Origin: Phreatobacter cathodiphilus
GTDB taxonomy: Bacteria; Pseudomonadota; Alphaproteobacteria; Rhizobiales; Phreatobacteraceae
NCBI RefSeq assembly: GCF_003008515.1
Contig: NZ_CP027668.1
Span: 1,418,001 to 1,482,000 of the forward strand
Direction of reading: 5' to 3'
DNA length: 64,000 nucleotides
Below, one piece after another: positions 29,233-48,763 of this stretch. A program made the position numbers and the translations under genes. Within the stretch, counting starts at the first letter, position 1. Each line of letters begins with the position of its first letter. A model generated the notes under the pieces. That model did not search any database and was not told the DNA's origin. It was given only the letters and a program-made list of their open reading frames with translations.

Positions 29233-30087
29233 TCAGGCGATGCCCGCCCGGTCGAGCGCCGCGGCTACCGGCAGCACGGCGAAGCCGCGTTCGAGGGCGC
29301 GCGAGACGATGCGCGCCAGCACCCGTGGCGTCGTGCCGTAGAGGCTCGGCGCCTCGCTGACGTCGTGGGTGAAGAGGACGAGCCAGCCGGAGGCGGCCTC
29401 GGCCCTGTCGAGCCAGCGGTCGAGATTGTTCTCGGTGAGGCCCCGGGCGCTGATTTCGACCGATTTGAGGAAGTCGAGGTCGGTGCGCCCGGCATTGATC
29501 CCCGGCTGGACGGACCGGGAGCTCCGCACGCTGGCGGAGAGCCGTTTCTTCTGCCTCACGCCGCACTGGCCGTAGGGATAGGCGTAGTTCTCGCGCACGA
29601 GGCCCGGCACGATCCGCCGCAGCGCCGCGCGGTTGGCGGCGAGGTCGGCCGCAAACGCCGCGGGATCGAGGAGATTGGCCGGCCGATGGGCATGGCCGTG
29701 CAGGCCGATCTCGTGGCCGCGGCGGTGGAGGTCCGCGACGGTCTCGGCCCCCGCCACAGTCCAGCGGCTGTTGGTGAGGCCGAACAGGCCCGACGCCGGA
29801 TAGAAGGTGCCGCGTGCGCCGTGATCTTCCAGAATGCGGGCGCCGGGGGTGTCCGCCGTCCGGGGGAAATCGTCGAAGGTGATGGAGACGACCGGCCGGT
29901 CGAGATGGATCGCGGCGGTGCGGAAGGCGATGCGGCGGCCGATCATATGGTCGAGCCGCGGAAACAGGCCGCCGAAATCAACCTCGTCCGGATCGACCAG
30001 CGGATCTGCCGGGGCGCGCCCCCGCACCGGACGGAACAGGGTAGGGTGCGCCAGCCCGTTCATCTTCTCGTTCACGCCCTGCTCCAT
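29233..30087 (-). CDS. Polysaccharide deacetylase family protein
   Basis: 284 residues from ATG 30087; a second possible start is 30063 (MNGLAHP). The NodB-homology domain has SITFDDFPRTADTPG, with the catalytic/metal Asp pair, and LHGHAHRP, the HxxxH-type metal site. There is no signal peptide, so unlike secreted deacetylases it should act in the cytoplasm, probably removing N- or O-acetyl groups from lipid-linked intermediates. It heads the minus-strand set deacetylase-Wzz-WecG-GT and is divergent from the GT2 gene. Confidence 0.85.
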   Translation of the reverse strand: MEQGVNEKMNGLAHPTLFRPVRGRAPADPLVDPDEVDFGGLFPRLDHMIGRRIAFRTAAIHLDRPVVSITFDDFPRTADTPGARILEDHGARGTFYPASGLFGLTNSRWTVAGAETVADLHRRGHEIGLHGHAHRPANLLDPAAFAADLAANRAALRRIVPGLVRENYAYPYGQCGVRQKKRLSASVRSSRSVQPGINAGRTDLDFLKSVEISARGLTENNLDRWLDRAEAASGWLVLFTHDVSEAPSLYGTTPRVLARIVSRALERGFAVLPVAAALDRAGIA

Positions 30088-30242
30088 GCGGTCTGCCCTG
30101 TTTCCGGACAGATACACTGGCCGGGCAAGCGGTGAGGCGCAAACTGGCAAGAGCCGGGCCAGGACCGGTCGCGGTCGCCGCGGCAAGCCATTTGCTGCGG
30201 AACGCGACAGACATCCATCCGCCCCCGCGTGAGGAGCCGATC

Positions 30243-31265
30243 GTGAACCAGGTTGAGACTGTTTCCATGGAATCGTCCCGCAGCGAGACGTCCGAGGACC
30301 GCGCCCTGGTCCGCAGCGCCGGGCTCGACCTGCAGGCCGCGCGGGCCGTCGTGGTGGTGCCGACCTTTCGCCGGCCGGCCATGCTGGCGGACACGCTCGC
30401 CTCGCTCGCCGGCCAGCGCGACGCGCCGCCCTTCGCCGTGGTCGTCGTGGAGAATGACGCGGCCGGCCGGGAGGGCCTCGTCGTCGCCGCCCAGTGGCTC
30501 GCCCGCGGCACCCTCTCCGGCCTCGCCTTCGTCGAATCCGCCCAGGGCAATGTCCACGCCATCAATGCGGGCTTCGCCATGGCTCTGGCCTCCTTCCCGG
30601 CGGCCGAGCACATCCTGATGATCGACGACGACGAGGTCGCCTCGCCCGAGTGGCTCGCGCGGATGGTGGAGGCGGCGGAGCGCGAGGACGCCGACGTCGT
30701 CGGCGGGCCGGTCGTGCCCTGCTTCCGCGACGAGACGCCGGCCTCGCTCGCCCGTCATCCCGTCTTCTGGCCGAGCCACGTGCGCACCGGCCCCGTGCCG
30801 ATGATCTACGGCACCGGCAACTGTCTGATGCGCCGGCGCGTCTTCGACCGCCTCGGCCACCGGCCGCTGGACCCCCGCTTCAACTTCCTCGGCGGCGGCG
30901 ACATGGACTTCTTCACCCGTTGTCGCCTGGCGGGGCTGCGCTCCTGGTGGGTGCAGGAGGCGCTGATCACCGAAACCGTGCCGGCGGAGCGCGCCCGCGT
31001 CGGCTGGGTGCTGAGACGGGGCCTGCGGATCGGCTCCATCAACCGGGCCGTCGACCTGAAACACGCGACGGGCGCGGCCGGCGGGGCAAGGATCGTCGCC
31101 AAGGACGTCGCCATCGTGCCGCTGGCGCTGCTGCGCGCCGCCGTCGCGCTGGTGCGGACGCGCAATCCGGTCGTCGCCGCTCATCCTCTTGCCGTCTCGG
31201 CCGGCCGGCTCGCGGCCTGGGCCGGCGTCGAGCAGCAGCCTTACCGCGCGGGGAACGTCTCGTGA
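30243..31265 (+). CDS. Glycosyltransferase family 2 protein
   Basis: 340 residues. The GT-A fold start AVVVVPTFRRPAMLADTLASL is followed by VVVVENDAAGREG, the DxD region HILMIDDDEVASPEWL, and the acceptor-side GGGDMDFFTRCRLAGLRS. The C-terminus has a hydrophobic segment (VAIVPLALLRAAVALV), suggesting membrane association. A GTG start at 30243 was chosen because GAGGAG lies 6 bases upstream; ATG 30267 is the alternative. First gene of a plus-strand operon with the polymerase and the GT4 gene. Confidence 0.88.
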   Translation: MNQVETVSMESSRSETSEDRALVRSAGLDLQAARAVVVVPTFRRPAMLADTLASLAGQRDAPPFAVVVVENDAAGREGLVVAAQWLARGTLSGLAFVESAQGNVHAINAGFAMALASFPAAEHILMIDDDEVASPEWLARMVEAAEREDADVVGGPVVPCFRDETPASLARHPVFWPSHVRTGPVPMIYGTGNCLMRRRVFDRLGHRPLDPRFNFLGGGDMDFFTRCRLAGLRSWWVQEALITETVPAERARVGWVLRRGLRIGSINRAVDLKHATGAAGGARIVAKDVAIVPLALLRAAVALVRTRNPVVAAHPLAVSAGRLAAWAGVEQQPYRAGNVS

Positions 31266-32578
31266 CGATGGCGCGCATCACCGGGGCCCCCGGCGCCCTG
31301 CCGGTGGACGACCTCGCCCAGCTCATGCGCTGGGCCCGCGTCCTCGTCTTCGTCGGCGCCTTCCTGCTCGCCTGGGTGACCCTGGAGCCCTATGCCGACC
31401 TCGGCACCACCGCCTCCCTGGAATTCGCCTTCGGCCAGGAGGGCACGGCTTATGCCGCCTACGGGCTCATGGCGGCCGTCGCCGGCCTTGTCGCGGTCCT
31501 GACCCAGCCGCGCGCGCTCGCGACGCTGATCCACCCGCTCTGGATCGCCCTCGGTGCCTGGCTGTCCTTCACCGTCGTCACCTCGGCGGATGTCTCGCTG
31601 TCGCTGCGGCGGCTGATCCTCTTCGGCATGCTCGCCGTGCTCACCGCCTCGCTGTTCCTGATGCCGAAGGGGAGGCGCGATCTGGCCCGGCTGCTGGCGG
31701 CCGCCGTCGGCATCCTCGTTCTCCTGTCGCTGGTCGGCGTCGCGCTCTTTCCCCAGTTCGCGATCCACCAGATCACGGACATCAACGAGCCGCAGCTCGC
31801 CGGCGACTGGCGCGGCGTCTTCGCCCACAAGAACACCGCCGGCGCCATCTTCGCGATGACCATCTTCATGATGATCTTCGCGGTGCGGACCGGCCTCGTG
31901 CCGCTGGGCTCGGTGCTGTTGCTGCTCTGCTCCGCCTTCGTGCTGATGTCCGGCGCCAAGAGCTCGACCATGCTTCTGGTGGTGAGTCTCGCCGTCTCCG
32001 TCGTGGTGGCGCGCACCCGCCGTGGCTGGCTGGCGGGGGCGATCGCCTTCGCCCCGCTCGTGGTTCTCTTGGTGCTCGGCCCCGGAACCGTGGTCAGCAA
32101 GGGCCTCGGCGACATCGTCCGTCTGTTGCCGATCGATGCGACATTCACCGGCCGCGCCGACGTCTGGGAGCTGGCACTGGAAAAGATCGTCGAGCGGCCG
32201 CTGACCGGCTTCGGCTATTCCGCCTACTGGGCGCTGGAATCGACCCGCTTCGGCCAGGAGGACGCAACCCAGTGGGGCGGCCACGCCGCCCATGCCCACA
32301 ACGGCTATATCGACGCGGCGCTCAACATGGGCCTTCCCGGCCTGCTCCTCGTGATCGCCGTCTTCGTCGTCTGGCCGCTGCGCAATTTCCTCGCGGCGCG
32401 GGCGCGGGGAGCCGACCCGGCGCTCCTCCTCATGTTCCTGCAGATCTGGCTCTTCGGCATCTACGTCTCGGTGCTCGAGAGCTTCCTCTTCGTCCGCTTC
32501 GACCCGATCTGGATCACCTTCCTCTTCGCGGTCTTCGGCCTGCATTACCTGGCGAGGCGGCCCCATGTCGCGGAGTGA
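31262..32578 (+). CDS. O-antigen ligase/EPS polymerase family membrane protein (Wzy/ExoQ-like)
   Basis: 438 residues with roughly ten transmembrane helices and a large periplasmic loop near 290-345 (TGRADVWELALEKIVERPLTGFG, then HAAHAHNGYIDAALNMG). GRxxxW and H-N-x-Y/xxL blocks are typical of the Wzy_C/WaaL superfamily, which joins lipid-linked repeats or transfers polymer. The GTG start at 31262 overlaps the previous stop (GTGA) and sits at good distance from GGGGAAC; ATG 31268 is possible. Within an EPS locus with Wzx and Wzz it is most likely the polymerase. Confidence 0.85.
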   Translation: MTMARITGAPGALPVDDLAQLMRWARVLVFVGAFLLAWVTLEPYADLGTTASLEFAFGQEGTAYAAYGLMAAVAGLVAVLTQPRALATLIHPLWIALGAWLSFTVVTSADVSLSLRRLILFGMLAVLTASLFLMPKGRRDLARLLAAAVGILVLLSLVGVALFPQFAIHQITDINEPQLAGDWRGVFAHKNTAGAIFAMTIFMMIFAVRTGLVPLGSVLLLLCSAFVLMSGAKSSTMLLVVSLAVSVVVARTRRGWLAGAIAFAPLVVLLVLGPGTVVSKGLGDIVRLLPIDATFTGRADVWELALEKIVERPLTGFGYSAYWALESTRFGQEDATQWGGHAAHAHNGYIDAALNMGLPGLLLVIAVFVVWPLRNFLAARARGADPALLLMFLQIWLFGIYVSVLESFLFVRFDPIWITFLFAVFGLHYLARRPHVAE

Positions 32579-33623
32579 CGAGGGCGCGTCGCGCCTCGAC
32601 GTGCTGATCTCGGACAGCGCCGCTCCCTGCGGCGTGGAGGCCTTCGCCCGCCGCCTGGCCGAAACTGCGGGCGGGCGCGCCGCGACGCGCGAACTCGGTA
32701 CCGGCGGCGGCGAGGGGGTCCTCGTCATCAACCTTCCGGTCGTCGCCTGGAAGCGACGGCTCGCCGATCCCGTCATCGCCGCGCTGAAGGCGCGGGCCCG
32801 CGGCCGGCGCGTCCTCCTCATCCTGCACGAATGGGCCGATCTTGACTGGAAACGGCGCGTCAGCTACGCGCCGCTTCTGCCGCTCGCCGGCGCCATCCTG
32901 TTCTCGGCGCCTGAGGTGGCGGCCCAGTTCGCCGCCGATCCGCTGTCGCGCCTCGCTCCGCGTCGCCGGGGTCTCGTGCCCATACCGCCGAACGTGGTGA
33001 GGCCGGACCTGCTGCCGCAGAGCCCGCTGACGGCGCGGCTCGACGAGGCCCGCCGCCGCGGCCAGCTCGTCCTCGGCCATTTCGGCTCCATCTATCCGCG
33101 CAAGCAGTCGACGCAGATCCTCGACCTCACGGCCGCCCTGGTGCAGCGCGGCGAGGACCCCTTCGCCGTCTTCATCGGCTCCTTCGTCAAGGGCCAGGAC
33201 CGCGTGGAGGAGGAGTTCATGGCGCGGGCGGCGAGCCTCGGGGTGGCCGACCGCATCGCCGTCACCGGCTATGTGGCCGATGACGCCGAACTCTTCGCGC
33301 TCTTCGCCGGCGTCGACGTCTTCGCCTATCTCTTCGCCGAAGGCCTTACCAGCCGGCGCGGCAGCGTGCTCGCCTGCGCCATGTCGGGCCGGCCGGTCGT
33401 CGTCAACGCGCCGGAGCGGCCCGGCGCCTTCGACCACCACCCGACCTACCAGCACCTCCTGGAGGAGGGCAGGCTGCGCCTCGTCTCCCACCGCGCCACC
33501 GTCGACGAGGTGGCCGCCGCGGTGGAACAGGCGTCGACCCTGCCGCGCCATGGCGCCCGTCTCGACGTCGCAGCCGCCTGGGGCGACGCGCTCGCCGCCG
33601 TCGATCGCGTTCTGGCCGCCTGA
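32565..33623 (+). CDS. Glycosyltransferase family 4-like (GT-B) protein
   Basis: 352 residues, overlapping the polymerase gene by 14 bases. The C-terminal Rossmann domain contains LVLGHFGSIYPRKQSTQILDL, RIAVTGYVADDAELFALFAGVDVF and a weak EX7E-like region after FAYLFAEGLTSRRGSVLACAMSG. The N-terminal acceptor domain begins LDVLISDSAAPCGVEAFARRL. It should transfer a nucleotide-linked sugar to the lipid-linked repeat; specificity is unknown. Confidence 0.85.
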   Translation: MSRSDEGASRLDVLISDSAAPCGVEAFARRLAETAGGRAATRELGTGGGEGVLVINLPVVAWKRRLADPVIAALKARARGRRVLLILHEWADLDWKRRVSYAPLLPLAGAILFSAPEVAAQFAADPLSRLAPRRRGLVPIPPNVVRPDLLPQSPLTARLDEARRRGQLVLGHFGSIYPRKQSTQILDLTAALVQRGEDPFAVFIGSFVKGQDRVEEEFMARAASLGVADRIAVTGYVADDAELFALFAGVDVFAYLFAEGLTSRRGSVLACAMSGRPVVVNAPERPGAFDHHPTYQHLLEEGRLRLVSHRATVDEVAAAVEQASTLPRHGARLDVAAAWGDALAAVDRVLAA

Positions 33624-33725: not shown

Positions 33726-35168
33726 TCAGAAGGCGTTGTCGTAGGCCTTCCGCGACAGGACGGTGCGGAACAGGATCTCGATGTCGAGCAGGATCGACCA
33801 GTTGTCGATGTAGAAGAGGTCGTGCTCGACCCTCGCCTTCATCTTCTCGACGGTGTCGGTCTCGCCGCGCAGCCCATGCACCTGCGCCCAGCCGGTGATG
33901 CCCGGCTTGACGTTGTGGCGGCGCGCATAGAGCGCGATCCGCTCGTCGAAGGCGCGGTCGTGGGCGACGGCGTGGGGGCGCGGACCCACCAGTGACATCT
34001 GTCCCGCCAGCACGTTCAGGAGCTGCGGCAGCTCGTCGATGTTCCAGCGCCGCAGGTACCGGCCGACGCGGGTGACGCGCTGGTCGTTCCGCGTCGCCTG
34101 ACGCACCACATCCCCGTCGTCCATCACCGTCATGGTGCGGAACTTGACGATCTGGAACGCCCGCTGGTTGAAGCCGAGGCGCCGCTGCATGAACAGGACG
34201 GGGCCGGGGCTGTCGAGCTTGATGGCGATGGCGACGAGGATCAGCACCGGCGTCAGCAGGAAGAGGGCGAAGGAGCCGAGGGTGATGTCGAGGGCCCGCT
34301 TGGCCATCACCTCGCCGGCGGTCAGCGGCGGGCGGCCGAGCTGCAGGCTGGCGATGCCGCCGGCCTTGGCGATGTGGACGTCCTGGAAGCGGTCGAAGAT
34401 GCGCTCCGGTCCGAGGTGGATGGTGACGGGGATGCGCATGAAGCCGTCGACGAGCCGGTCGATCGTCTCGGTCTGCGACCAGGGCACGATGATCAGCACG
34501 TCGTCGAGCTGCATTTCGCGGGCCTGGCCGGCGATGCGGGCGATGTCGTCGCGGCCGACCGATCCGTCCTCGGCCGAGAGCAGGCCGGTTCCGGCGATGT
34601 GCATGCCGGCGTTCCACGGCTGGTAGCGGCGGGCGAAGTCAGTCACGTCGCTCTCGCGGCCGACCAGCATGACGCGCCGGGCCGGGATGACGCCGAACTT
34701 CGAGCCCAGCGTCAGCAGGCGCCCGGTGAGCTCGCGGGTGACGAGCACCGCCGGCAGGCCGACGAGGAAGGTGAGAATGACGGCGACACGGGAGAAGACG
34801 TCGGTCGTCTTGGTGGCGAAGGCGAAGGCCATCAGGGTCAGGAACGTCGCCCCCCACATGGTCAGCGTGGTGCCGAAGGCCCGCCGGGCGCCGACATAAT
34901 TGCCGATCACGTACTGGCTGCGCACGGCGCTGAGCATGACGAAGGTGCTGGCGACCAGCATGGCGAGCGTCGCCTGGGAGGTCGTGGTCCACCATTCGCC
35001 GCTGGAGACGCGGCTGTAGACGAGGGATGTGGCATAGCTTGTGGCGGCGATGATGAGCCAGTCCAGCGCTGCGGTGGACAGCTTGAGCGCGAGGCGCATC
35101 CACGCATAGCCGCCCCGGCCGCGCCTGGCGACCGCCGCCGCGGGAATATCAAGTTCCTTCAACGTCAT
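33726..35168 (-). CDS. Undecaprenyl-phosphate glucose phosphotransferase (WcaJ/ExoY type)
   Basis: 480 residues of the polyisoprenyl-phosphate hexose-1-P transferase family. About four N-terminal helices and a CoA-binding-like Rossmann domain ([19 protein letters not shown]) precede the catalytic domain, which starts [19 protein letters not shown] and includes [40 protein letters not shown] and MSLVGPRPH. It starts EPS assembly by placing glucose-1-P or galactose-1-P on undecaprenyl phosphate. The start at 35168 removes a basic extension. It lies 112 bases downstream of the fused hydrolase on the same strand. Confidence 0.93.
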
Positions 35169-35280
35169 GGCGTGAACCCTTGAAGCTCGCGACGCCACCG
35201 CCTGTCTCGAATGGGGACGGGCGGCGGGGCCTTACGGCCTCATCGCAGGGGCCGTGCCAGCGGGGCGCGGCCGGAGCGGT

Positions 35281-36987
35281 TCACGACGGGATTCGGCCGC
35301 GCCGGGCGGTTGCCGCCGCATGCGCGACCAGCGTCTGGCGTGCGGCCGGCGGCGTCAGGTCGTGGTCCGACCGCGGCAGGATGGTCAGCCGCACGTTGTC
35401 GCGCCCGGTGAGCCAGCGCCCGCCCGAGCCGAAATGCAGGGCGAGATCGCCGAGCCCGGCATCGTTCTCGCTGAAGATGATGTCGACGGGGATGCGCCGG
35501 TCGGCGAGCCGCCGCATGATGTCCCGCGCCCGGCGCGTCTCCTCGGTCGGGCGCAGCGCCCGGATCCGGTCGGCGGCGCGCCGGCTGAAGGCGCGGATCA
35601 GCGGTCCGAGCTTCCGCTCGCCGCTCAGCAGCCGCCGCCAGGCGCGGGCCTCGAAAACCTTGCCGGCATAGCTCGCCGCCAGCGGATAGGCGGAGGCGAT
35701 GGCTTCCTCGACCGTCTCGCCGGGACGCCAGACGAAGCGCTGGATATTGACCAGGACGAGCCCGGCGATCCGCTCGTCGCGCGCCGCCTGGTGCAGCGCG
35801 AGATAGGCGCCGCTGCAAGCGCCGAGCATGGTCACGTCGCCATGCCCGCGGGCGACGAGGAGGTCGACCGCGTCCCGCACCTGGGCGTCGTTGGCGCGGT
35901 TGTAGAGGACGCTGTCGAGGCTGTCATCGCCGTCGGGACGATCCCGCCCGTCGCCGATCCCGGCGAGGTCCATGCGCAGCGAGGCGATGCCCTGGGCCGC
36001 GAGTTCGCGGGCGAGCTGGACGCCCGAACGGGCCCAGCCGACATGGGAGTTGCGCCCGGCATTGACGATCAGCACGACCGGGCGGCCCGGCGCGGCCGTG
36101 GCCGGGTCACAGACGACGCCGAACAGCCGGCGCCCCTCGCCGAAGGTCAGCGCTTCCTCGGTGAAATGGGGGCCGGCGAGGCGGGCCGGTAGCGCCGGCA
36201 CGGCTGGACGGGCGGGCCGGATGGGGAGCTGGTCCATCCAGGCCACGGCGTCGGTGAGGATGCCGGCGGGTGTCGCCGCCATGGTCGGGCTGAGCGAAAT
36301 CGCCTCGAAGCCCTGCGCCTCCGCCGCGGTGATCGGAGCCGTGCTCCAGGCGGCGGCGAGCTGGCGTCCGTCCGCCGCGCCTTTGCGCGTGAGCAAAAGG
36401 ACCGGAGCCTCGGGCGGGGCGAGGCGGGCGAGGTCGATCCCCCGCATCGCCTCCAGCGTGGACGACGTGGTGGTCAGGCCGGCGATGGACAGCCCCGCCT
36501 CGGTAGCCGTGGCGTCGGGATCGAGCCGCGCCGCCTCGGCGAGCGCCCGTGCCGTCAGTGCGAGCTCACGGGCGTAGAGCCGCCCCTTCACCACGGGATC
36601 GAGCAGGACGATGCCGGCGAGGTTGTCGGCTCCCTCGGCTGCCAGCGCGGCGAGGGTGGCGCCGAACCGGAGCCCGGAGAAGACGATGCCGTCGACCCCC
36701 GCATGCCGTCCGAGGACGACGGCAGCCTCGCGCGTCGCCGCGACCCAGGCGGCGAGGCGCTCGGGATCGGCGTCGGCGCCGAGCGAATCGGCCGTGCCCG
36801 GCAGGTCGAAACGCAAGGCCGCGTGGCCGGCCGCGGCGAGCGCCTCCGCGAGACGCCGCAGCGTCTTGGTCGCCGCCAGCGCCTCCACCCCGTGCGGGGG
36901 GACGATGACGACGCCGAGCCCGGAGCGGCGGTCAGCCTCCGGCAGGTGCAGCTTGCCCATCAGGCCGTTGAACGTGACGGGGATCAT
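35281..36987 (-). CDS. Tandem alpha/beta hydrolase (fusion resembling exosortase-A-associated hydrolases 2 and 1)
   Basis: 568 residues with two alpha/beta hydrolase units. Unit 1 (about 1-255) has VIVPPHGVEAL, LRFDLPGTADSLG and nucleophile-elbow FSGLRFGATLA, where Arg107 occupies the nucleophile position. Unit 2 (about 275-560) has VVLIVNAGRNSHVGWARSG, LRMDLAGIGDG and elbow LGACSGAYLAL, with Cys391 at the nucleophile position, Asp509 and His542. The GLR-x-G and G-x-C-x-G elbows recall the two hydrolases found beside exosortase A in EPS loci, here fused. Its ATG overlaps the GH2 stop codon (ATGA). No exosortase is present in the window. Confidence 0.8.
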   Translation of the reverse strand: MIPVTFNGLMGKLHLPEADRRSGLGVVIVPPHGVEALAATKTLRRLAEALAAAGHAALRFDLPGTADSLGADADPERLAAWVAATREAAVVLGRHAGVDGIVFSGLRFGATLAALAAEGADNLAGIVLLDPVVKGRLYARELALTARALAEAARLDPDATATEAGLSIAGLTTTSSTLEAMRGIDLARLAPPEAPVLLLTRKGAADGRQLAAAWSTAPITAAEAQGFEAISLSPTMAATPAGILTDAVAWMDQLPIRPARPAVPALPARLAGPHFTEEALTFGEGRRLFGVVCDPATAAPGRPVVLIVNAGRNSHVGWARSGVQLARELAAQGIASLRMDLAGIGDGRDRPDGDDSLDSVLYNRANDAQVRDAVDLLVARGHGDVTMLGACSGAYLALHQAARDERIAGLVLVNIQRFVWRPGETVEEAIASAYPLAASYAGKVFEARAWRRLLSGERKLGPLIRAFSRRAADRIRALRPTEETRRARDIMRRLADRRIPVDIIFSENDAGLGDLALHFGSGGRWLTGRDNVRLTILPRSDHDLTPPAARQTLVAHAAATARRGRIPS

Positions 36988-39446
36988 GCTGCGAACTCGT
37001 AAGGGACGGGATGGCTGTTGAGGGCGGCGACGGTGCCGCCCGGTGCGGCCTCGCGGGTTCGGGCGATGAGGGCGACGATGCGCGTCTCTCCCGGCGCGAG
37101 GGTGAAACCCTCGTCGGCGGGGCGGCAAGCCCGATCGTCGATTGTGACGAAGCGGGCGAGCCGCTCCGTCGTGATGGAAACGGCGGGGGCGCCGTCCCGG
37201 ATCACCGGTCGCACGGTCAGGCCGATATCCCGCGGCTCGGCCGCCCGGCCGGGGACGAAATGGCTCGCCTCCGCCAGCAGCTCGCCGGTCTCGGCGTCAA
37301 GGAGCCGCGCCAGCGTCGCATCATGGGCGAGGGGGCCGAAACGGTAGGCGTGGGCCAGGTCGAAGAATCGGCCGGCGAGGGTGAAACTCGAAAGGCTGTC
37401 GGCGGAGCGCGGCGAGAGGACCAGCTCGCGCTCGGCCCGGACGAGCGGGTGGACGCCCTCGCCATAGGTCGCGAGGGTCAGGCGCACCCGCTTCTCCCGC
37501 GCCGTCTCGTTGACGAGATGGACGCCGAGCCCGTTCAGCCCCTCGTCGGTGAGTCCGAGATGGAGCGGCCGGAAGGCCCGCTTGAGGGCATGCCAGGTGG
37601 TCTTCGGCCGGCCCAGCCGGTCGATCACGCCCCAGCCGGCGCCGGGCTTCATGTCGTTCAGGAACCAGACGAGGCCGCCGGCGCAGCGTGAGCCCGCCCG
37701 CCGCCATTCGGCGAAGACCTCCTCCATGAGCTGGGCGGGGGCCGCCCGGCCGAGGGCGAGATAACGCTCCGGCTCGCTCGTGCGCAGCGTCTGCGGGTCG
37801 ACGCCGAAGAGGGCGGCGACATAGTGGTCGCGCACGTCCTCGAAATCCCAGGAGGCCCCGGCGTCACGCGGCACGCCGTCCTTCCAGCGTTCGCCCATGG
37901 GCGCGGCGAGGCCTTCCGCCGCCAGCGTCGCGGGCGCGGGAACGGCGGCGAAGGCGAGGCATTCGGAGGCGAAGCGCACGTCGGCGCGGCGCGCGTCCTC
38001 GACCGGGCGGCGATAGGCGCCGACGCCGAAATAATGGGTGACGCCCTCGTCGGTGACGAAGGGCAGGGGGCCGCCCCAGGGGGAGTGCGGGACGTAGATC
38101 GCCTGCGGCGCGGCCTTGGCCGCCACCGCAGCCAGAGCCTCCTCGAACAGCGGCAGGGCCGCCTGGCCCGGCGTCAGGCCGAGCATGGTCGCCTGCTGGG
38201 CGATCTCGCTGCCCCCGCAGACCACCGCCAGCGACGGCGAGCCCCGGAGCCGGCCGAGCAGCGCGCGCGCCTCGGCCTCGGCCGTCGCGCGGAAGGTCTC
38301 GTCGCCCGGATAGTCGAAATTGGCGAAGGGCAGGTCGTGCCAGACGAGGATGCCGAGGGCGTCGCAGGCCTCGTGGAAGGCGCGGCTCTCGGGCGTGGTG
38401 GTGCCGGAGAGGCGGATCATGTTCATGCCGGCCTCGCGGGCGAGCGCCAGCAGCTGCCGTGGATCGGCGCCGCCCGGCGAAGCCGGATCCGGCGGCATCC
38501 AGGAGGCGCCGCGGCAGAACACCGGCTCGCCGTTGACGACGAGGCCGAAACCCTTGCCGTCGGGGCCGCGGTCGAGGGCGAGGGAGCGGAAGCCGACGGA
38601 GCCGCAATCGATCAGGCGGGACCCGATCCTCACCTGCACCGGATGGAGCGCCGGCGCGCCGTGGGTGTGCGGCCACCAGGGCGCGACATCCGGGAGAACC
38701 ATGCGGCCGGCATGGAGGCCGTCCTCGCCGGGGTGAAGCACCTGGGCATGGCCGCCGCACAGGACCTCGACGGGCTGGTCCGGCGGCCTGCCGAAGCGGA
38801 CGGCGAGGTCGAGAATGCCGTCGCCCGCATCGAGGCGGGCGGAGAGGGTGAGGTCATCGACGCGCGGCCCGGCGCCACGCAGCACCAGATCGACTGGCTG
38901 CCACGGCCCCACCACCGCGACCGCGGGCGACCAGCCCGGCATATGGCCGAGCGGCGTGGTGCGGACGAGCCGGAGCGCGCCCGGCTGAATCATCTGCGGC
39001 CGCCAGCGCTGGCGCGGCCCCTTGGCCGAGGCGAGGAGCGGGTTGAGCGCGGCGAAGCGGACGGCGAGCCGGTGACGGCCGGATGCCGCGAACTGGTGGG
39101 ATTGCGCGAGGAACATCGACGTGGCGCCGAGGATGGGCGCCCCGTCGAGGAAGACCTCGGCCGGACCGGTAAGGCCCTCGAAGCGCAGCGTCGCCGGGCC
39201 TTCAGCGGTGAAGGCGCAGCGGTACCAGACGTCGCGGTCGTGGAGGCCCGAGGGCGACCCGGGTGACAGACGTCCGGCTGCGATCAGCGCCGCTTCCGCC
39301 GTGCCGGGGACGGGCGCGTCGATCCAGTCACCGCGCGCCTCGGCCTCCGCCGGTGTCTCCGCTGTGCCCGGATCGAGGACGGCCATGGTCCAGCCCGCGT
39401 CGAGCGGGACGATCCGGTCGTCCGTGTCGCTGCGGATCGGACCCAT
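36984..39446 (-). CDS. Glycoside hydrolase family 2 protein (beta-mannosidase-like)
   Basis: 820 residues without a signal peptide. The N-terminal jelly-roll (about 15-190) has WYRCAFTAEGPATLRFEGL and AEVFLDGAPI; the barrel starts near 300 (VVNGEPVFCRGASWMPPD). Acid/base candidate is Glu414 in CGGSEIAQQ, replacing the usual GNNE; nucleophile candidate is Glu495 in RFASECLAF. Beta-mannosidases and exo-glucosaminidases are the closest kinds. It lies 7 bases after the DUF1839 gene in the carrier-protein operon, so an intracellular aminoacyl-sugar or EPS intermediate may be the substrate; this is inference. Confidence 0.8.
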   Translation of the reverse strand: MGPIRSDTDDRIVPLDAGWTMAVLDPGTAETPAEAEARGDWIDAPVPGTAEAALIAAGRLSPGSPSGLHDRDVWYRCAFTAEGPATLRFEGLTGPAEVFLDGAPILGATSMFLAQSHQFAASGRHRLAVRFAALNPLLASAKGPRQRWRPQMIQPGALRLVRTTPLGHMPGWSPAVAVVGPWQPVDLVLRGAGPRVDDLTLSARLDAGDGILDLAVRFGRPPDQPVEVLCGGHAQVLHPGEDGLHAGRMVLPDVAPWWPHTHGAPALHPVQVRIGSRLIDCGSVGFRSLALDRGPDGKGFGLVVNGEPVFCRGASWMPPDPASPGGADPRQLLALAREAGMNMIRLSGTTTPESRAFHEACDALGILVWHDLPFANFDYPGDETFRATAEAEARALLGRLRGSPSLAVVCGGSEIAQQATMLGLTPGQAALPLFEEALAAVAAKAAPQAIYVPHSPWGGPLPFVTDEGVTHYFGVGAYRRPVEDARRADVRFASECLAFAAVPAPATLAAEGLAAPMGERWKDGVPRDAGASWDFEDVRDHYVAALFGVDPQTLRTSEPERYLALGRAAPAQLMEEVFAEWRRAGSRCAGGLVWFLNDMKPGAGWGVIDRLGRPKTTWHALKRAFRPLHLGLTDEGLNGLGVHLVNETAREKRVRLTLATYGEGVHPLVRAERELVLSPRSADSLSSFTLAGRFFDLAHAYRFGPLAHDATLARLLDAETGELLAEASHFVPGRAAEPRDIGLTVRPVIRDGAPAVSITTERLARFVTIDDRACRPADEGFTLAPGETRIVALIARTREAAPGGTVAALNSHPVPYEFAA

Positions 39447-39453
39447 CGGCCCC

Positions 39454-40467
39454 TCAGGATGCGGCCCGAACGAGCGTCCGGGTTTCGGCCACGGGGAAGC
39501 GCAGGGCGGCGGCGAGCTCGGCCATGAGCGCGTCGTAACGGTCGGCGGTCTCGTCGAGGGCGGCGGCGAGCGCCTCCGTCTTCTTGCGCGCGAGCGCCCG
39601 TGCCAGCAGGAACTGGAAGGTCTTCATGCCGTTCGACATGGCCTCGCACAGCGCCACGGCCCGGTCGAGCCCGCCGACGCCCTGGCCCGCGAGCCAGGCG
39701 AGATGGTCGCCGAGCAGCGCGATGTTGGCGCCGAACTGACGGGCGGTGTTGAAGGCATAGGGGTGGAAGGAGCAGGGCGGTTCGCCCGCCAGCCAGTCGA
39801 GATGGCGCTGAAGGGCGTCGCGATAGGAGATAACCGGATTGCGCTCGGGCCGCCGCGCCCAGTGGCCGCCGAGGCGCGCGAGAGCCGCATCCCGCAGCGC
39901 CCGGCCGGAGAGGCCGGGGCCCGCGACCTTCACGAATTCCGTATAGGGCGGCAGGATCGGCGTCGCCACGGCGCCGAAGCCGAGGAGATGCTCGACGTCC
40001 TCGCCCTCCATCTCGAAATAGCCGGCATTGTGGAAATAGCCGAGACGCGACGCCGCGCGGTCGAAACTGTTCACCGCGATCGTCGTCTTCGAATGGTCGG
40101 TGCGGTAGGTGACGCCGCGGGTGTCGGGCAGGAAATGCGCGTCGACCTCGACGAGGACGAGGCGGCCGCGGGCGACCTGCTCCTCCAGGTGATCCACCAG
40201 CGGGCGGTAGATCGACAGTTCCTGGAGGTCGAGGCCGAACAGGGTGTCGAGATCGCCGTTGGGGATCTTGAAGAAGGTGAACTGGTCTCCCTCGAAGTCC
40301 TGGGCGAGCGTCATGCCGAGGCCGGCCGCGGGTTCGCGGCCGAGGGTCGAGAGCAGTTCGATGAAGAGATCCGTGTGGCAGTTGGTCTCCGGCCAGGCCC
40401 GACCCGCATCGTGCAGGCCGTGGCGCCGGTAGGTCGCCGCCGAGAGCTCAGGAAACACCGCCGCCAT
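39454..40467 (-). CDS. DUF1839 family protein, possible carrier-protein-dependent acyltransferase
   Basis: 337 residues. DUF1839 proteins accompany amino acid:[carrier protein] ligases. The N-terminus has WPETNCHTDLF (Cys30, His31) and a later block VLVEVDAHFLPD…YRTDHSKTTIAVNSFD (Asp109, His125, Asp136). This Asn-Cys-His plus value-Asp-x-x-x-Leu-Pro and His pattern resembles BtrH, which transfers an acyl group from an acyl carrier protein in butirosin synthesis. I therefore suggest, without proof, that it moves the aminoacyl group from the carrier protein to an acceptor. The C-terminal third is helical. It lies 4 bases after the ligase gene. Confidence 0.8.
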   Translation of the reverse strand: MAAVFPELSAATYRRHGLHDAGRAWPETNCHTDLFIELLSTLGREPAAGLGMTLAQDFEGDQFTFFKIPNGDLDTLFGLDLQELSIYRPLVDHLEEQVARGRLVLVEVDAHFLPDTRGVTYRTDHSKTTIAVNSFDRAASRLGYFHNAGYFEMEGEDVEHLLGFGAVATPILPPYTEFVKVAGPGLSGRALRDAALARLGGHWARRPERNPVISYRDALQRHLDWLAGEPPCSFHPYAFNTARQFGANIALLGDHLAWLAGQGVGGLDRAVALCEAMSNGMKTFQFLLARALARKKTEALAAALDETADRYDALMAELAAALRFPVAETRTLVRAAS

Positions 40468-40471
40468 GGCC

Positions 40472-41389
40472 TCAGAGCCCCAGCGAATGGCGCAGCGAGG
40501 CGGGCCAGCGGTCCACGTTCGTGCCGTAGTGCTTCAGGAGGGCCAGGATGACCCGCTCGTGGCCGAAGCCGACGCAGGCGGTGTGTCCGACCTCGCCGCC
40601 CTCGGTGGTCAGGCCGAAGGTCTTGCCGAAATGGTCCTGGTGGTAGTTGAAGGACAGGCAAGCCGTCGGCTTCTCCTCGCTCTCGATGGCGATGAGGAGC
40701 TCGAACTTCAGCCGCTGGTCGCGCTGGTTGACCGCCAGCATCTTGCCCGTCCGGCCGAAGAAGGGGTCGTTGGCGACGTCCACGGTGAAGGGCAGGCCGA
40801 GCTCGGCGATCAGCGCCTGGCCGCGCTCCAGCCAGGAGGCGCGGAACTCGGTCACCTGCTCGGGCGTGCCCATCCGCACGAATTCGCGCATGCGGAAGAA
40901 CTGCTGGCGCGCCGGATCCTGCGAGGGCTCGTGGCGGAAGCAGTAGGACATGAGGTCGAAGAGGCGGCCTTCGTCCGGCAGGGTGCCGCGCTTCGCCGCC
41001 GTCGGATAGAGCGGGTAGCAGGCGGCCGGCGTCAGCACGATCTCGCTCGCCTTCTGCCCCTCGGTCCAGTCGCCGCCCTGTTCGATCGTCTGCAGCAGGC
41101 TGACGTGGTCGGCCGGGTTGCCGCAGAAGCAGTGCACGGTGCCGGCGAGCTGGGGGAAGCTCTTCATGTAGCCGGACTTCTCGAAGACCTGGCGCGACAT
41201 GGCGGGCGGAAAGCGCACCACCTCCGGCTCGTCCGCGGCGCCGTAACGCGTCACCATGGCCTGGAAGCCGTCGCCGATCGCCTCGAACAGGCCGGAGCGG
41301 CCGTAGAGGCCGTCGACGCCGGTTTCGATCAGCAGGCCCGTGTCGAAGAGGTCGTCGAGGAAGGTCGCGGTCTCGGTCTTGGCGAGCAT
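40472..41389 (-). CDS. Amino acid--[acyl-carrier-protein] ligase
   Basis: 305 residues, the catalytic core of a class II (atypical SerRS-like) synthetase without a tRNA-binding domain. Motif 2 is [20 protein letters not shown] and motif 3 is [16 protein letters not shown]. Cys124, Glu169 and Cys272 match, at constant offset, the zinc ligands I recall for the Bradyrhizobium enzyme (Cys131, Glu176, Cys279). Such enzymes activate glycine or alanine with ATP and load it on the phosphopantetheine of a small carrier protein rather than tRNA. The carrier protein is encoded two genes upstream in the same operon. Confidence 0.93.
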
Positions 41390-41392
41390 GTC

Positions 41393-42586
41393 TCAGTCCT
41401 CCAGATCGGTGTCGAGACGCGACATGAGCAGCATGGTCGCGGTGTTGGCGAGGATGCGGTCGTTGGCGATCATGAGCGGCGCCGACAGGATGTCGCGCAG
41501 CTGCCGTCCGACCGAAAAGGGATTGTCGTTCTTGTAGCCCTGGATGCCGATGATGGTGAGCGCCTCCTGGACGATGCCGACGGCGCGGCGCGAGGCCTCG
41601 ACCTTCACGGCGTTCATGGCGACGGCGAAGGCCATGGAATTGATGGCGTCCTCGTCGTGCCGGGCCGCCTCGAAGCGGGCGATGCCGTCGCGGACGATCG
41701 TCTTCAGCGCCGCGAGTTCGGCGGCGGCCGCCGCGAGGCGCGGGGCGCCAGGCGGAACGGCGTTCGGCATGCGGCGGGCGGCGGCGCGCACGCTCGCCTG
41801 CGCCTTCGACAGGGCCGAGCCGGCGATGCCGAACCAGAGCGAGGCCCAGAACAGGTGCGAACTCGCCAGCATGGACTGGGCCGCGATCTCAGCGAAGGGC
41901 TTGGGGAAGACCTGGGCGGCGGGAACGGTCGCCGCCAGCTTGAAGCCGTGCGAGGTGGTGCCGCGCATGCCGAGCGTGTCCCAGACCGAGGTCTGGACGA
42001 GGCTCGCCTGGTGCTTCTCGATCACCACCATGACCTGGTCGGAGGAGGCGGCCTCAGGGGCGCGGCGGGCGGTGGCCAGGATGGCGTCGGCGTCGAGGCC
42101 GTAGGAGATGACGGTCGCGTCCTTCTCCAGTCGCACCATGTCGCCGTCCGGCACGATGGAGCAGATGGAGTTGCGCAGATCACCGCCGATGCCGGCCTCC
42201 GTGGTGGCCGACCCGAGCAGGAGCTGCTTGTCCGCCAGCCGGACCATGAAGGCGCGGTGCCAGTCGCTGTCGAGCCCGTGGTGGACGAGGCTCGACACCT
42301 TGATCTGGTGCATGGCGAAGACCATGCCGGCCGCCGAACAGGCGCCGCCGAGCACGGTGCAGACCTGGGCGATCTCGGCGAAATCGGCGCCTTCGCCACC
42401 CAGGTGGGTCGGAATCATCATGCCGAGCAGGCGGGCCTCGCGCATGGCCTCGACGGCCTCGCGCGGAAAGCGGCCTTCACGGTCGACCGCGTCCGCATGG
42501 GCGGCGGCGATCTCGGCGACCCGCTTGACGCGAGCGGCCGTCGTGGCGCCCTGGGGCGCCCTGGGGGATTCCGACCGGTCGAGCAT
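41393..42586 (-). CDS. Acyl-CoA dehydrogenase family protein (carrier-protein associated)
   Basis: 397 residues with the acyl-CoA dehydrogenase fold: N-terminal helices (FPREAVEAMREARLLGMMIP), the middle beta domain (LLLGSATTEAGIGGDLRNS, DTLGMRGTTSHGFKL) and C-terminal helices ending GIQGYKNDNPFSVGRQLRDIL. It should bind FAD. At the place where many homologues have the catalytic Glu in YEGT, this one reads LMIANDR, so the base must be elsewhere or the reaction differs. Homologues such as PltE oxidise carrier-bound prolyl groups, which makes an aminoacyl-carrier substrate plausible. It starts one base after the carrier-protein stop. Confidence 0.85.
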   Translation of the reverse strand: MLDRSESPRAPQGATTAARVKRVAEIAAAHADAVDREGRFPREAVEAMREARLLGMMIPTHLGGEGADFAEIAQVCTVLGGACSAAGMVFAMHQIKVSSLVHHGLDSDWHRAFMVRLADKQLLLGSATTEAGIGGDLRNSICSIVPDGDMVRLEKDATVISYGLDADAILATARRAPEAASSDQVMVVIEKHQASLVQTSVWDTLGMRGTTSHGFKLAATVPAAQVFPKPFAEIAAQSMLASSHLFWASLWFGIAGSALSKAQASVRAAARRMPNAVPPGAPRLAAAAAELAALKTIVRDGIARFEAARHDEDAINSMAFAVAMNAVKVEASRRAVGIVQEALTIIGIQGYKNDNPFSVGRQLRDILSAPLMIANDRILANTATMLLMSRLDTDLED

Positions 42587-42587
42587 G

Positions 42588-42839
42588 TCAGCCTCCGACG
42601 TTCTCGGAGCGCAGCTCCTCGAGAGCGGCACCGATCGTGGCGATCGAGGAGAACAGCTTGCGGTTCAGCATGCGCTCGGGGAACTCGACCTCGAAGGCTT
42701 CCTCGAGCGCCAGCATCAGCTGCACCGAGCCGAAGGAGGTCATCCCGGCATCGTACAGGTCGCTCGTGTCGGCAAGGTCAGCCACGCCGCCCGGCAACTC
42801 GACGGTCCGGGCGATGATCTCTCGGATCTGACTGTTCAT
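42588..42839 (-). CDS. Acyl carrier protein (amino acid carrier)
   Basis: 83 residues with the four-helix carrier protein pattern. The phosphopantetheine attachment Ser35 is in DAGMTSFGSVQLMLALEE, where GMTS replaces the DSL of fatty-acid carriers, as in carriers paired with amino acid:CP ligases. The C-terminal part is FPERMLNRKLFSSIATI. The start at 42839 is preceded by AGGAGCG. It is the first gene of a six-gene minus-strand operon with gaps of 1, 3, 4 and 7 bases and one 4-base overlap. Confidence 0.92.
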   Translation of the reverse strand: MNSQIREIIARTVELPGGVADLADTSDLYDAGMTSFGSVQLMLALEEAFEVEFPERMLNRKLFSSIATIGAALEELRSENVGG

Positions 42840-43204: not shown

Positions 43205-44461
43205 ATGTCCGGCATTGCCCTCCTCCTGACCCAGTCGCTCCTCTATTTCGGAGTCATGGCCGTCCTCTTCCGGCTGCGCCACGCCATGGGCCTCGGCGCC
43301 TTCCTCTGTGCGCTCGGGGTCATGCATTTCCTCGAGACCTACCTGGCCGCGGTCTTCTTCATCCAGCTGCCCTTCGGCCTCCTGTCGCCGGGATCGACGG
43401 TGCTGTTCTCCGGCAAGCTCGCCATCATCCTGCTGTTCTACATCCGCGAGGATGCCGAGACGGTTCGCCAGCCGATCTACGGCCTGCTCATCGGCAACTT
43501 CCTGATGGTCGCGCTCGTCGCGACGCTGCGCCTCTACGGGCCGCCGGTCTCGCTGCAGGGCTACAACCCCGACCTCGCCCTCATTAACCAGATGGGCGTG
43601 CTGATGGTCTGGGGCACGACCTTGCTCTTCATCGACGCCATCGCCCTCATTCTCGTCTACGAGCGGCTGCGCAGCCTGCTGCCGCGCTCGGGGGTGCTGC
43701 GCGCCGGCCTCAGCCTCGCGGTCATCCTCACCTTCGACCAGGCGGCCTTCTTCGTCGGATTGCGCTGGGTGACGGGCACGCCCTTCGATGCGCTGATCGG
43801 CGGCTGGATCGCCAAGATGGCCGCCGCCCTGGTCTATGCCGTATATATCGGCCTCTACCTGACCCTGTTCGAGCGGAAGAGGCTGGAGGCGGCGCCCGAG
43901 CCCCTGGCAGACATCTTCCACAAGCTCACCTACCGCCACAAATACGAGGAACTGCTCGGCAAGAGCAGCCACGACGTCCTCACCGGCGCCCTCACGCGCG
44001 AGCGCTTCGAGGCGCTGGGTCCCGCCATGCTCTCCGAATCCTATGCCGGCGGGCGCAGGATGAGCCTGCTCATCCTCGATATCGACCATTTCAAGGCCAT
44101 CAACGACCGTTTCGGCCACGTGGTCGGCGACGCGGTGCTGCGCCGTGCCGGCGAGTGCCTGCGCGCCGAAATCCGCGCCCAGGACCGCATGTTCCGTTAT
44201 GGCGGCGAGGAGTTCGTCCTTCTCTGCGACGGTCTGCCGTCCGCCGGCGCCATGAACCTGGCCGAACGCCTCCGCTCCACGGTCCAGGACGTTCTCGCCC
44301 GCGAGTTCGAGGCGGCGCCCACCGTCAGCATCGGCGTCGCCACCGCTCCGGAAGATGCGACGACCCTGCCGGATTTGCTGAACCGGGCGGATTCGCGCCT
44401 CTACGTCGCCAAGCGCCAAGGGCGCAACCGCGTCGTCGGCGCTTCGGGCGGCGAGGGCTAG
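43205..44461 (+). CDS. Membrane diguanylate cyclase (GGDEF)
   Basis: 418 residues: six or more N-terminal transmembrane helices (1-222) of an unrecognised sensor type, a short linker, then a GGDEF domain from about residue 255 (LTGALTRERFE). The active site is GGEEF (333-337), and an inhibitory I-site RAQD (324-327) is placed five residues before it, so the enzyme should make cyclic di-GMP with product inhibition. Asp292 and Asp294 in ILDIDHFKAIND bind metal. Divergent from the carrier-protein operon and beside the EPS locus, it may control EPS output. Confidence 0.92.
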   Translation: MSGIALLLTQSLLYFGVMAVLFRLRHAMGLGAFLCALGVMHFLETYLAAVFFIQLPFGLLSPGSTVLFSGKLAIILLFYIREDAETVRQPIYGLLIGNFLMVALVATLRLYGPPVSLQGYNPDLALINQMGVLMVWGTTLLFIDAIALILVYERLRSLLPRSGVLRAGLSLAVILTFDQAAFFVGLRWVTGTPFDALIGGWIAKMAAALVYAVYIGLYLTLFERKRLEAAPEPLADIFHKLTYRHKYEELLGKSSHDVLTGALTRERFEALGPAMLSESYAGGRRMSLLILDIDHFKAINDRFGHVVGDAVLRRAGECLRAEIRAQDRMFRYGGEEFVLLCDGLPSAGAMNLAERLRSTVQDVLAREFEAAPTVSIGVATAPEDATTLPDLLNRADSRLYVAKRQGRNRVVGASGGEG

Positions 44462-46682: not shown

Positions 46683-47372
46683 ATGACCGCCCGCTACGCC
46701 CTTTATGCCGCACCCGCACCCGACGCACAGCTCTGGCGCTTCGGCTCCTCCGTCATCGGCTATGACGCCGCAACGGCGGCAGACGCGCCTTTTCCCGACG
46801 GTTCGCCCTTCGACGCCCCGGACTGGCCGGCGCTGACCGAGGATCCCCAGCGCTACGGCTTCCACGGCACGCTCAAGCCGCCCTTCGCCCTGGCCGAGGG
46901 GCGGAGCGAGGCCGATCTCCTCGAGGCCGCCATGCTCTTCGCCGAGCGGCGCCGCGCCTTCACGATTCCCGCCCTGAAGGTCTCGCTCATCGGCGCCTTC
47001 GTCGCCCTCGTTCCCGACGGCCCCGCGCCGGAGCTCGACGCGCTCGCCGCCGATTGCGTGCGCGACTTCGACGCCTTCCGCGCGCCGCTCACGGAGGCGG
47101 ACCGGGCACGGCGCCTGCGCTCGCCGCTGAGCGAGCGGCAGATCGCCCATCTCGACGCCTGGGGCTATCCGCACGTCTTCGAGGACTTCCGCTTCCACAT
47201 GACGCTGACCGGCCGGCTCGACGAGGCGCGCCGCGAGCCGGTCCGCGCGGCGTTGGCGGAACGCTATCGCGCGGTCGCCGCGCCCTTGGCCGTCGACGCG
47301 CTCTGCCTCTTCCGCCAGCCGGACAGGGCAGGGCGGTTCGCCATCCTCGCCCGTTTCCCCTTCGAGGCCTGA
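46683..47372 (+). CDS. DUF1045 (2H phosphoesterase-like) protein
   Basis: 229 residues with two histidine motifs of the 2H phosphoesterase fold, [10 protein letters not shown] (about residue 60) and [10 protein letters not shown] (about residue 177), and the starting [25 protein letters not shown] of DUF1045. Homologues lie in phosphonate (phn) operons as 'phosphonate metabolism protein', but no phn gene is found here, so the substrate may differ. Divergent from mnmA. Confidence 0.88.

Positions 47373-47405: not shown

Positions 47406-48763
<1,358 letters not shown>

Follow-up and report, generated by a model that had tools for sequence, protein, structure and literature searches.

A six-gene operon in the genome of Phreatobacter cathodiphilus (4.49 Mb) is conserved as a group, and in the order it is found close to polysaccharide genes more often than control regions are. 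The operon was identified in a stretch of 64,000 nucleotides (contig NZ_CP027668.1, positions 1,418,001 to 1,482,000 of the forward strand; hereafter the window, whose own numbering is used throughout) and encodes a carrier protein, a flavoenzyme of the acyl-CoA dehydrogenase (ACAD) fold, an amino acid:[carrier protein] ligase, a protein of the family DUF1839, a GH2 glycosidase and a double alpha/beta hydrolase. We hypothesize that these proteins constitute an aminoacyl-transfer module, whose acceptor would in many hosts most likely be an intermediate or product of biofilm exopolysaccharide (EPS) synthesis, a reading in which we place about as much belief as doubt. The genes follow one another on the minus strand from 42839 to 35281, with spacings of 1, 3, 4 and 7 bases and one 4-base overlap, and both this arrangement and the assigned families agree with a preliminary description of the window. 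The nearest named relatives of the ligase are found in an unclassified Rhizobiales genome (95% identical) and in a Phreatobacter sp. genome (93%).

The preliminary description had suggested an aminoacyl-decorated saccharide as the product. The evidence below supports this in part, but the idea is a rediscovery, because Iyer et al. 2010 already proposed it. In a note added in proof (PMC2922099) these authors describe a neighborhood composed of a ligase, an acyl carrier protein, a redox enzyme, a conserved uncharacterized protein (example Atu2574) and a glycosidase, and propose an amide bond between the amino acid and an amine of a cell-surface sugar derivative, formed by the uncharacterized protein. 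Atu2574 is, we infer, a DUF1839 protein. A passage of a 2022 review calls the role of this ligase class unknown, and of the 20 of 23 papers listed for the ligase together with exopolysaccharide in the open-licence literature, none has a title or beginning of an abstract on this ligase family. Beyond the proposal of Iyer et al., the present analysis adds the fold match of DUF1839, the missing glutamate of the flavoenzyme, the cysteine hydrolase, controlled statistics on EPS genes, the connection to the bec/bep clusters and the ester alternative.

Conservation of the operon

Among 297 genomes of the order, the ligase scored over its cut-off in 63 and DUF1839 in 48, and all 48 genomes with DUF1839 fall within the 63 with the ligase (hypergeometric probability 1.7e-42, uncorrected for kinship). 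DUF1839 was found in none of 19 genomes, 15 with a ligase over the cut-off and four with weak ligase matches, a null result that alone does not show absence; a separate search with this family was positive in 48 others of the draw. At the level of gene neighborhoods, 47 of the 66 loci fetched from the order carry DUF1839; the carrier, the flavoenzyme and the ligase stand beside it in 47/47, and the GH2 gene lies downstream in 46 (within 0.7 kb in 45 and at 2.6 kb in one), the 47th locus stopping at a contig end. A relative of the hydrolase is present in the fetched stretch of 30 of these 47 loci, some contigs being cut short. Given this conservation over 47 loci, the grouping is not due to chance.

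A further 95 loci (80 named contigs, 8 plasmid regions and 7 others), five of which share DNA with the first 66 and which include one duplicate pair, gave all five core genes in 90, counted as presence of matches and not as strict adjacency, and a hydrolase relative in 63 of these 90. DUF1839 is absent from two of the 95, L096, where the contig ends, and L133. Plasmids of Mycetohabitans, Azospirillum, Rhizobium and Phyllobacterium also carry the full six-gene set, the hydrolase being oppositely oriented in the Rhizobium and Phyllobacterium copies, and the set is found in other orders and in Betaproteobacteria. DUF1839 is nevertheless rare, with 4/289 genomes in a draw from the class and 16/398 in a draw from the phylum, the genome of the window included.

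The 15 ligase loci of the order that lack DUF1839 (L049, L050, L053, L055, L056 and L062-L071) hold the flavoenzyme and the ligase together, with the carrier divergent where found. Loci L072-L075 encode distant ligase-like proteins under the family cut-off, those of L072-L074 being 27-28% identical to the window ligase. In L033 (G210) DUF1839 is split over two reading frames (profile positions 2-213 and 208-312), by a frameshift or an assembly error.

Ligase and carrier protein

The ligase passes the curated family score of PRK07080 (486.3 bits, cut-off 357) and matches the Bll0957 structures by sequence at E 2.3e-94, its solved relatives being 3mey and 4h2s-4h2y (including 4h2w). Residues C124, E169 and C272, presumably the Cys/Glu/Cys zinc site, are invariant in 24 sequences; the cysteine motifs are found in 66/66 loci and a loose glutamate motif in 65. 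Characterized relatives use Gly or Ala. The carrier, a PF00550 protein, likewise exceeds the cut-off of its curated family PRK07081 (100.2 bits, cut-off 72), and its second-best NCBIfam match is the DltC model. A GxxS motif is present in 46 of the 47 carriers of DUF1839 loci, the exception being L036, in which the assigned start removes the motif; a narrower regular expression for the carrier serine, applied to all 58 carrier matches, left 17 unmatched, partly weak reverse-strand matches from loci lacking DUF1839. Both curated families and the solved relatives thus lend support to the prediction, already made in the preliminary description, that an amino acid would be activated and held on the carrier. 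The pair resembles the Bll0957-type ligases and carriers in passing both cut-offs, but differs from them in being embedded with DUF1839, a GH2 glycosidase and a double hydrolase.

DUF1839 and the predicted transfer step

The match of the DUF1839 protein to PF08893 has an E-value of 8.5e-112, and an AlphaFold2 model computed from 31 sequences (mean predicted local distance difference test score, pLDDT, 90.2) consists of an alpha/beta N-terminal part followed by a C-terminal helical bundle. All 18 Foldseek matches in the PDB with E <0.001 are AziU3, CtaG or CcbD (E 1.6e-8 to 1.7e-4); they span 320-371 alignment columns, and the next match has E 0.056. VIA-align picked out the same three proteins, with a Z score of 19.6 for CcbD (289 residues, root-mean-square deviation 3.6), 17.8 for CtaG and 17.6 for AziU3 (CtaG and AziU3 entries ranging from 16.5 to 17.8), and 9.1 for the next best, a designed helical protein. 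The likeness to CcbD/LmbD, CtaG and AziU3 covers a two-part fold of about 289 residues and an N-terminal cysteine, at a sequence identity of 10-16%; a search of PDB sequences with the DUF1839 profile returned nothing better than E 0.82.

Within the family, C30, T128, T129, H146 and H125 are invariant in 31 sequences, and the motifs WPxTNC, KTT and Y/F-F/L-H occur in 47/47 DUF1839 proteins. CtaG and AziU3 act in antibiotic pathways, like CcbD. As described in PMC12945683, CcbD moves an amino acid from a carrier protein to an amino sugar: proline bound to the carrier passes to the cysteine of a Cys-His-Glu triad and from there to the amine of a thiooctose. Accordingly, the shared fold in the model suggests that DUF1839 may work like CcbD, which lends qualified support to the transfer step of the preliminary description; membership of the CcbD family is not claimed. 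A survey of papain-like proteins offers, for its part, the guess of an acyl-CoA-dependent glycan processing role for DUF1839 (PMC10318531).

Flavoenzyme, glycosidase and double hydrolase

The preliminary description had proposed an acyl-CoA dehydrogenase homologue that possibly oxidizes the amino acid. The ACAD fold holds, but the usual catalytic glutamate is replaced by Ile373, in 30/30 aligned flavoenzymes; the column is aligned to the glutamate of 8i4p, and we take it to correspond to Glu376 of MCAD. Isovaleryl-type dehydrogenases carry an alternative base on helix G, where a by-eye alignment gives as candidates Ser/Ala/Thr/Cys at 243 or the invariant His244. The oxygenases DszC, DnmZ and nitrososynthase appear further down the list of PDB matches, and we consider an oxygenase or oxidase more likely than a desaturating dehydrogenase, in line with Iyer et al., who guessed at a monooxygenation.

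The GH2 protein is nearest to beta-mannosidases (5n6u, E 3.3e-86), and E414 and E495 are kept in 21/21 sequences at the aligned acid/base and nucleophile positions of these enzymes. In clan GH-A an asparagine precedes the acid/base; here the preceding residue is serine in 20/21 and asparagine in one. In the double hydrolase, 18/18 sequences have glycine or arginine at the nucleophile position of the N-terminal half and Cys391, Asp509 and His542 in the C-terminal half, whose cysteine would suit a thioesterase or an acyltransferase. The protein falls below the cut-offs of both families of exosortase A-associated hydrolases (TIGR03100, 124.5 versus 168.45 bits; TIGR03101, 82.7 versus 202.75), and this assignment was rejected. 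A model of the hydrolase (pLDDT 86.6), with 1169 esterase matches at E <0.001, says nothing specific.

Linkage to polysaccharide genes

The association with EPS genes was assessed with six profile hidden Markov models seeded from families of the window (GT4, GT2, WecG, Wzc, sugar transferase and Wzy). One locus per genus was used, the genera being phylogenetically non-independent, with a stretch reaching at most 9.5 kb from the ligase in each direction (less in L014, L024 and L043). The 61 control regions of ~20 kb came from the same genomes, at round coordinates chosen arbitrarily; one genus was represented via a sister genome and sampled once. Many control contigs were picked from those named for carrying a sugar transferase, and the controls are therefore richer, not poorer, in EPS genes. 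Any of the six families was found in 10/21 genera versus 5/61 controls (one-sided Fisher p 2.3e-4), and in 9/20 genera when the genus of the window was left out (p 6e-4). A first model for Wzx (12/21 versus 0/61) was discarded, having drifted and counted the double hydrolase itself; the rebuilt, non-iterated model gave 6/21 versus 0/61 on its own and, added to the other six, 11/21 genera (p 5.4e-5).

Pfam families among the neighbors include GT4, Wzx, GH5, WecG, ManC, phosphomannomutase, Wzz, polysaccharide deacetylase and a sugar-transfer ATP-grasp. Fourteen of 20 neighbors scanned singly, which were picked partly for looking like EPS genes, are of polysaccharide type, the other six belonging to other families or to none. 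In a tally of 196 neighbor proteins, Glycos_transf_1 tops both halves (8/99 and 7/97), the controls not being tallied in this way. An initiating sugar transferase was considered as an order-wide partner and rejected, as it lies within 20 kb only in the genus of the window (23 genomes of 21 genera, many on draft contigs).

Genomic context in the window

On one side, the operon of the window adjoins a Wzx/Wzy-type exopolysaccharide locus (about 24.1-35.2 kb), and on the other a divergent gene for a VUPS-GGDEF diguanylate cyclase, as the preliminary description had stated (Table 1). The position of the cyclase is not, however, a feature of the genus, since it adjoins the operon in just 3/10 same-genus loci having upstream sequence, and with its adjacency varying in this way the cyclase is perhaps not part of the system. 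In contrast, the arrangement of hydrolase and initiating sugar transferase, the latter starting 82 bases past the former (112 with a later start), recurs in 10/11 fetched same-genus loci, the contig of the 11th stopping earlier. The polysaccharide deacetylase of the locus could expose sugar amines. A scan for sigma-70 promoters found 0 versus 0.4 expected, terminator-like sites numbered 4 versus 2.9 expected, and no signal peptides were seen by eye, the GH2 protein included.

Table 1. Genes of the operon and of its flanks in the window.
Feature	Position	Strand	Remarks
Carrier protein (PRK07081)	42588..42839	-	83 aa, phosphopantetheine Ser35 in GMTS
Flavoenzyme, acyl-CoA dehydrogenase fold	41393..42586	-	ACAD domains; Ile373 at usual Glu position
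Amino acid:[carrier protein] ligase (PRK07080)	40472..41389	-	Cys124, Glu169, Cys272 invariant in alignment
DUF1839, papain-like, predicted carrier-dependent (amino)acyltransferase	39454..40467	-	PF08893; Cys30, His125, Thr128, His146 invariant
GH2 beta-mannosidase-like glycosidase	36984..39446	-	Glyco_hydro_2_N2, Ig_mannosidase; Glu414, Glu495 kept, Ser precedes acid/base
Double alpha/beta hydrolase	35281..36987	-	N-half without nucleophile; C-half Cys391, Asp509, His542
VUPS-GGDEF diguanylate cyclase	43205..44461	+	Divergent from operon
Initiating sugar transferase (PF02397)	33726..35198	-	First EPS-locus gene, operon's strand
GT4-type glycosyltransferase	32565..33623	+	
Wzy-like polymerase (PF04932)	31268..32578	+	
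GT2-type glycosyltransferase	30192..31265	+	
Polysaccharide deacetylase (PF01522)	29233..30087	-	
Wzz/GNVR chain-length protein	27618..29111	-	
WecG/TagA/CpsF glycosyltransferase	26837..27616	-	
Wzx flippase (PF13440, PF01943)	24105..25532	+	Searched as 23799-25532

The EPS locus also contains a gene for a 418-aa protein (25576-26832, minus strand) with no Pfam match at E 0.001, and a GH10 glycoside hydrolase domain (22000-23700, plus strand) lies at its far edge. Further along, the protein encoded at 46683-47372 (plus strand) passes TIGR03223, a putative phosphonate metabolism protein, with a gene for serine--tRNA ligase adjoining at 47475.

Occurrence outside the order

In loci that we call Cupriavidus-type, on the basis of the DUF1839 of L256 being 74-88% identical to Cupriavidus records, the gene order is PAP2, sugar transferase, carrier, flavoenzyme, ligase, DUF1839 and GH2, and L255 and L260 continue with a Crp regulator, a second DUF1839, ManC, Wzc and a hydrolase relative. 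This second DUF1839 copy lies on the opposite strand between the Crp regulator and ManC (12232-13299 in L255 and 18762-20009 in L260).

Burkholderia cenocepacia locus L261 reads sugar transferase, Crp, Crp, carrier, flavoenzyme, ligase, DUF1839, GH2, sigma-54 regulator and ManC, and L258 has the same layout, its last regulator being named sigma-54/VpsR by Pfam. Besides the five-gene core in the same order, both loci share with the bep/bec clusters ManC, a sugar transferase and regulators of the Crp and sigma-54 types. Judged by family assignments, the core is located between putative BerB- and BerA-like regulators of the Bep exopolysaccharide; the window operon has no such flanks, the diguanylate cyclase and the sugar transferase standing there instead. 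Table 2 of PMC9684580 gives berB (sigma-54 regulator) as BCAM1342 and berA (Crp/Fnr) as BCAM1349, and therefore, from gene order, the core should be five of BCAM1343-1348. Text searches of PMC9684580 and PMC5552954 returned no mention of BCAM1343 or BCAM1348, and the literature consulted on the bec/bep cluster names neither a ligase nor an amino acid in the parts available, Table 2 of PMC3584217 ending at Bcam1341. The gene table of the latter, from 2012, lists Bcam1334 as a TIGR03100 hydrolase, for which quality control is suggested.

Mutants are known for the homologous bec cluster, a published counterpart of which is BTH_I0520-I0537 in the laboratory strain Burkholderia thailandensis E264. 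As reported in PMC5507470, an insertion in becG, which encodes a protein with an acyl-CoA dehydrogenase domain, lowered biofilm optical density (0.84 +/- 0.08 versus 1.25 +/- 0.03) and gave smooth colonies; of the 18 bec genes, the primary screen missed only becM and becO, which were not in the library, and becF, which was. From annotation and order, becG would be the flavoenzyme described here and becF the carrier. The polymer of a BerA-overproducing B. cenocepacia, attributed to Bep, is [3)-Gal-(1->3)-Glc-(1->3)-Gal-(1->3)-Man-(1->], with no amino sugar, and was extracted in 0.3 M NaOH and measured in 0.3 M NaOD at 50 C (PMC7084887).

Outside the Pseudomonadota, in an EPS locus on a Tsukamurella plasmid, the neighbors of a carrier, a phosphopantetheinyl transferase and a ligase include a sugar transferase, glycosyltransferases and Wzx. 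A protein of 531 aa related to the double hydrolase is also encoded there (BLASTP E 3e-16, hhalign probability 99.7), and the annotation shows neither DUF1839 nor a flavoenzyme within 9 kb. On a plasmid of Priestia megaterium (L262, 7106-15653), a holo-ACP synthase (ACP, acyl carrier protein), a carrier, a flavoenzyme and a ligase are encoded, a locus that points to alanine as the substrate and a peptide-like product in Bacillota. The link between operon and polysaccharide genes drawn in the preliminary description thus holds against the controls and is seen again in Burkholderiales and on a plasmid of an actinomycete.

Discussion

The gene content, conservation, fold, residues and genetic linkage of the operon are matters of observation, and the scheme that we build on them, in which we infer every chemical step, the amino acid and the acceptor, runs as follows. 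The ligase, which resembles class-II aminoacyl-tRNA synthetases (aaRS), would activate a small amino acid and load it on the phosphopantetheine of the carrier, where the ACAD-fold flavoenzyme may modify the aminoacyl group. DUF1839 would then take this group onto its cysteine and pass it to a sugar nucleophile in the manner of CcbD, and the GH2 glycosidase and the cysteine alpha/beta hydrolase may trim or proofread the sugar and the aminoacyl thioester or ester. The linkage would be an amide in the presence of an amino sugar and an alkali-labile ester in its absence, as in Burkholderia Bep. In delivering a carrier-bound amino acid to a glycopolymer, such a system would resemble the Dlt D-alanylation of teichoic acids, from which it differs in having a ligase that is aaRS-like, not DltA-like, and in having no DltB-type MBOAT acyltransferase among the six window proteins.

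A number of observations weigh against this scheme. The published triad of DUF1839 is C-T/S-H (PMC10318531), in contrast to the C-H-acid order of CcbD, and a single hhalign comparison with BtrH_N gave a probability of 4% (E 0.0097, nine unrelated profiles giving E 0.15 or higher), so that kinship in sequence is not significant and the idea of a BtrH homology that profile comparison could detect was rejected. The PDB sequences that best match the flavoenzyme are dehydrogenases, and the missing glutamate alone is no proof of an oxygenase, because it is likewise missing at that column in 7p98, an entry deposited under the name of a dehydrogenase. L133 encodes a carrier and a ligase, and its 20 kb contain no DUF1839. 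The co-occurrence with EPS genes exceeds the controls but is not general, since none of the seven EPS families, Wzx included, is present in the fetched stretch of 10/21 genera. Likewise, no EPS-polymer gene is listed near the operon in 7/8 annotated plasmid regions, in a gene table that is incomplete, the exception being Shinella, with GumC and an O-antigen ligase 6-9 kb away, and the partners at L262 are a DMT transporter, an ATP-grasp protein, a thioesterase, an alanine permease and an alanine racemase, with no EPS genes. In Burkholderia, bec insertions can be polar and, as the polymer attributed to Bep contains no amino sugar, an amide on a sugar amine is excluded there should this be the acceptor; extraction in NaOH would have removed an ester-linked amino acid, and the NaOH/NaOD work-up consequently neither supports nor excludes an ester.

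Alternatively, the operon may have its own product, a small soluble metabolite of aminoacyl-sugar or peptide-like nature, with the proximity to EPS genes being secondary, through co-regulation or a signal to the biofilm. Copies of the whole set on plasmids of Rhizobium, Phyllobacterium, Azospirillum and Mycetohabitans have no annotated EPS-polymer genes next to them, ten genera have no EPS neighbors, CcbD itself belongs to an antibiotic pathway, and the Priestia ligase locus resembles alanine-peptide metabolism. We nevertheless regard a separate metabolite as rather unlikely, given that the EPS linkage is above the controls, that the core lies within clusters of the bec/bep type, which are known to produce a polysaccharide, and that no exporter family is prominent among the 25 commonest neighbor families (ABC_tran 6/99, MFS_1 2/97).

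Within polysaccharide synthesis, the acceptor might instead be a lipid-linked or lipid saccharide, such as an undecaprenyl-linked repeat unit or a lipid A sugar, or a protein, in which case the tag would serve flipping, polymerization or length control and may be removed by the hydrolase. The absence of signal peptides by eye is in line with such an acceptor, as is the initiating sugar transferase that adjoins the carrier in the Cupriavidus-type loci and the hydrolase in the genus of the window; moreover, the Mycetohabitans copy is <=12 kb from genes for a lipid A aminoarabinose transferase, an acyltransferase and a lipoteichoic acid (LTA)-synthase-family protein. The description of the Bep polymer in PMC7084887 reports no substituent, but the NaOH work-up could equally have stripped a permanent ester, and we consider such an acceptor, with a transient tag, unlikely. 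Very unlikely, in our opinion, is an EPS neighborhood that is merely incidental, with genomic islands gathering both and the operon having an unrelated role, for example in amino-acid or redox metabolism. Plasmid location and variable neighbors speak for it, as do the 15/63 ligase genomes without DUF1839, 11/15 of these loci being without the six EPS families; on the other side, four of these 15 loci have Wzc and one of the four also GT4, the controls from the same genomes differ significantly, the linkage is found in three separate lineages, and becG has a biofilm phenotype.

An aminoacyl-transfer module acting on EPS would give a job to an enzyme class of unknown role, the amino acid:[carrier protein] ligases, and the question can be tested through the link to EPS clusters, for which mutants and regulators are known and a polymer structure has been published. 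The connection to a Burkholderia exopolysaccharide controlled by cyclic di-GMP leads to the ester alternative and, with it, to a broader view that we put forward tentatively and hold to be possible though doubtful, namely that a widespread set of aaRS-derived enzyme, carrier, flavin oxygenase and CcbD-like transferase may decorate biofilm EPS with an (oxidized) amino acid, ester-linked if no amine is available, and may have been overlooked through alkali extraction. If true, the biofilm matrix would be modified by a route parallel to teichoic-acid D-alanylation, built from a reused tRNA synthetase.

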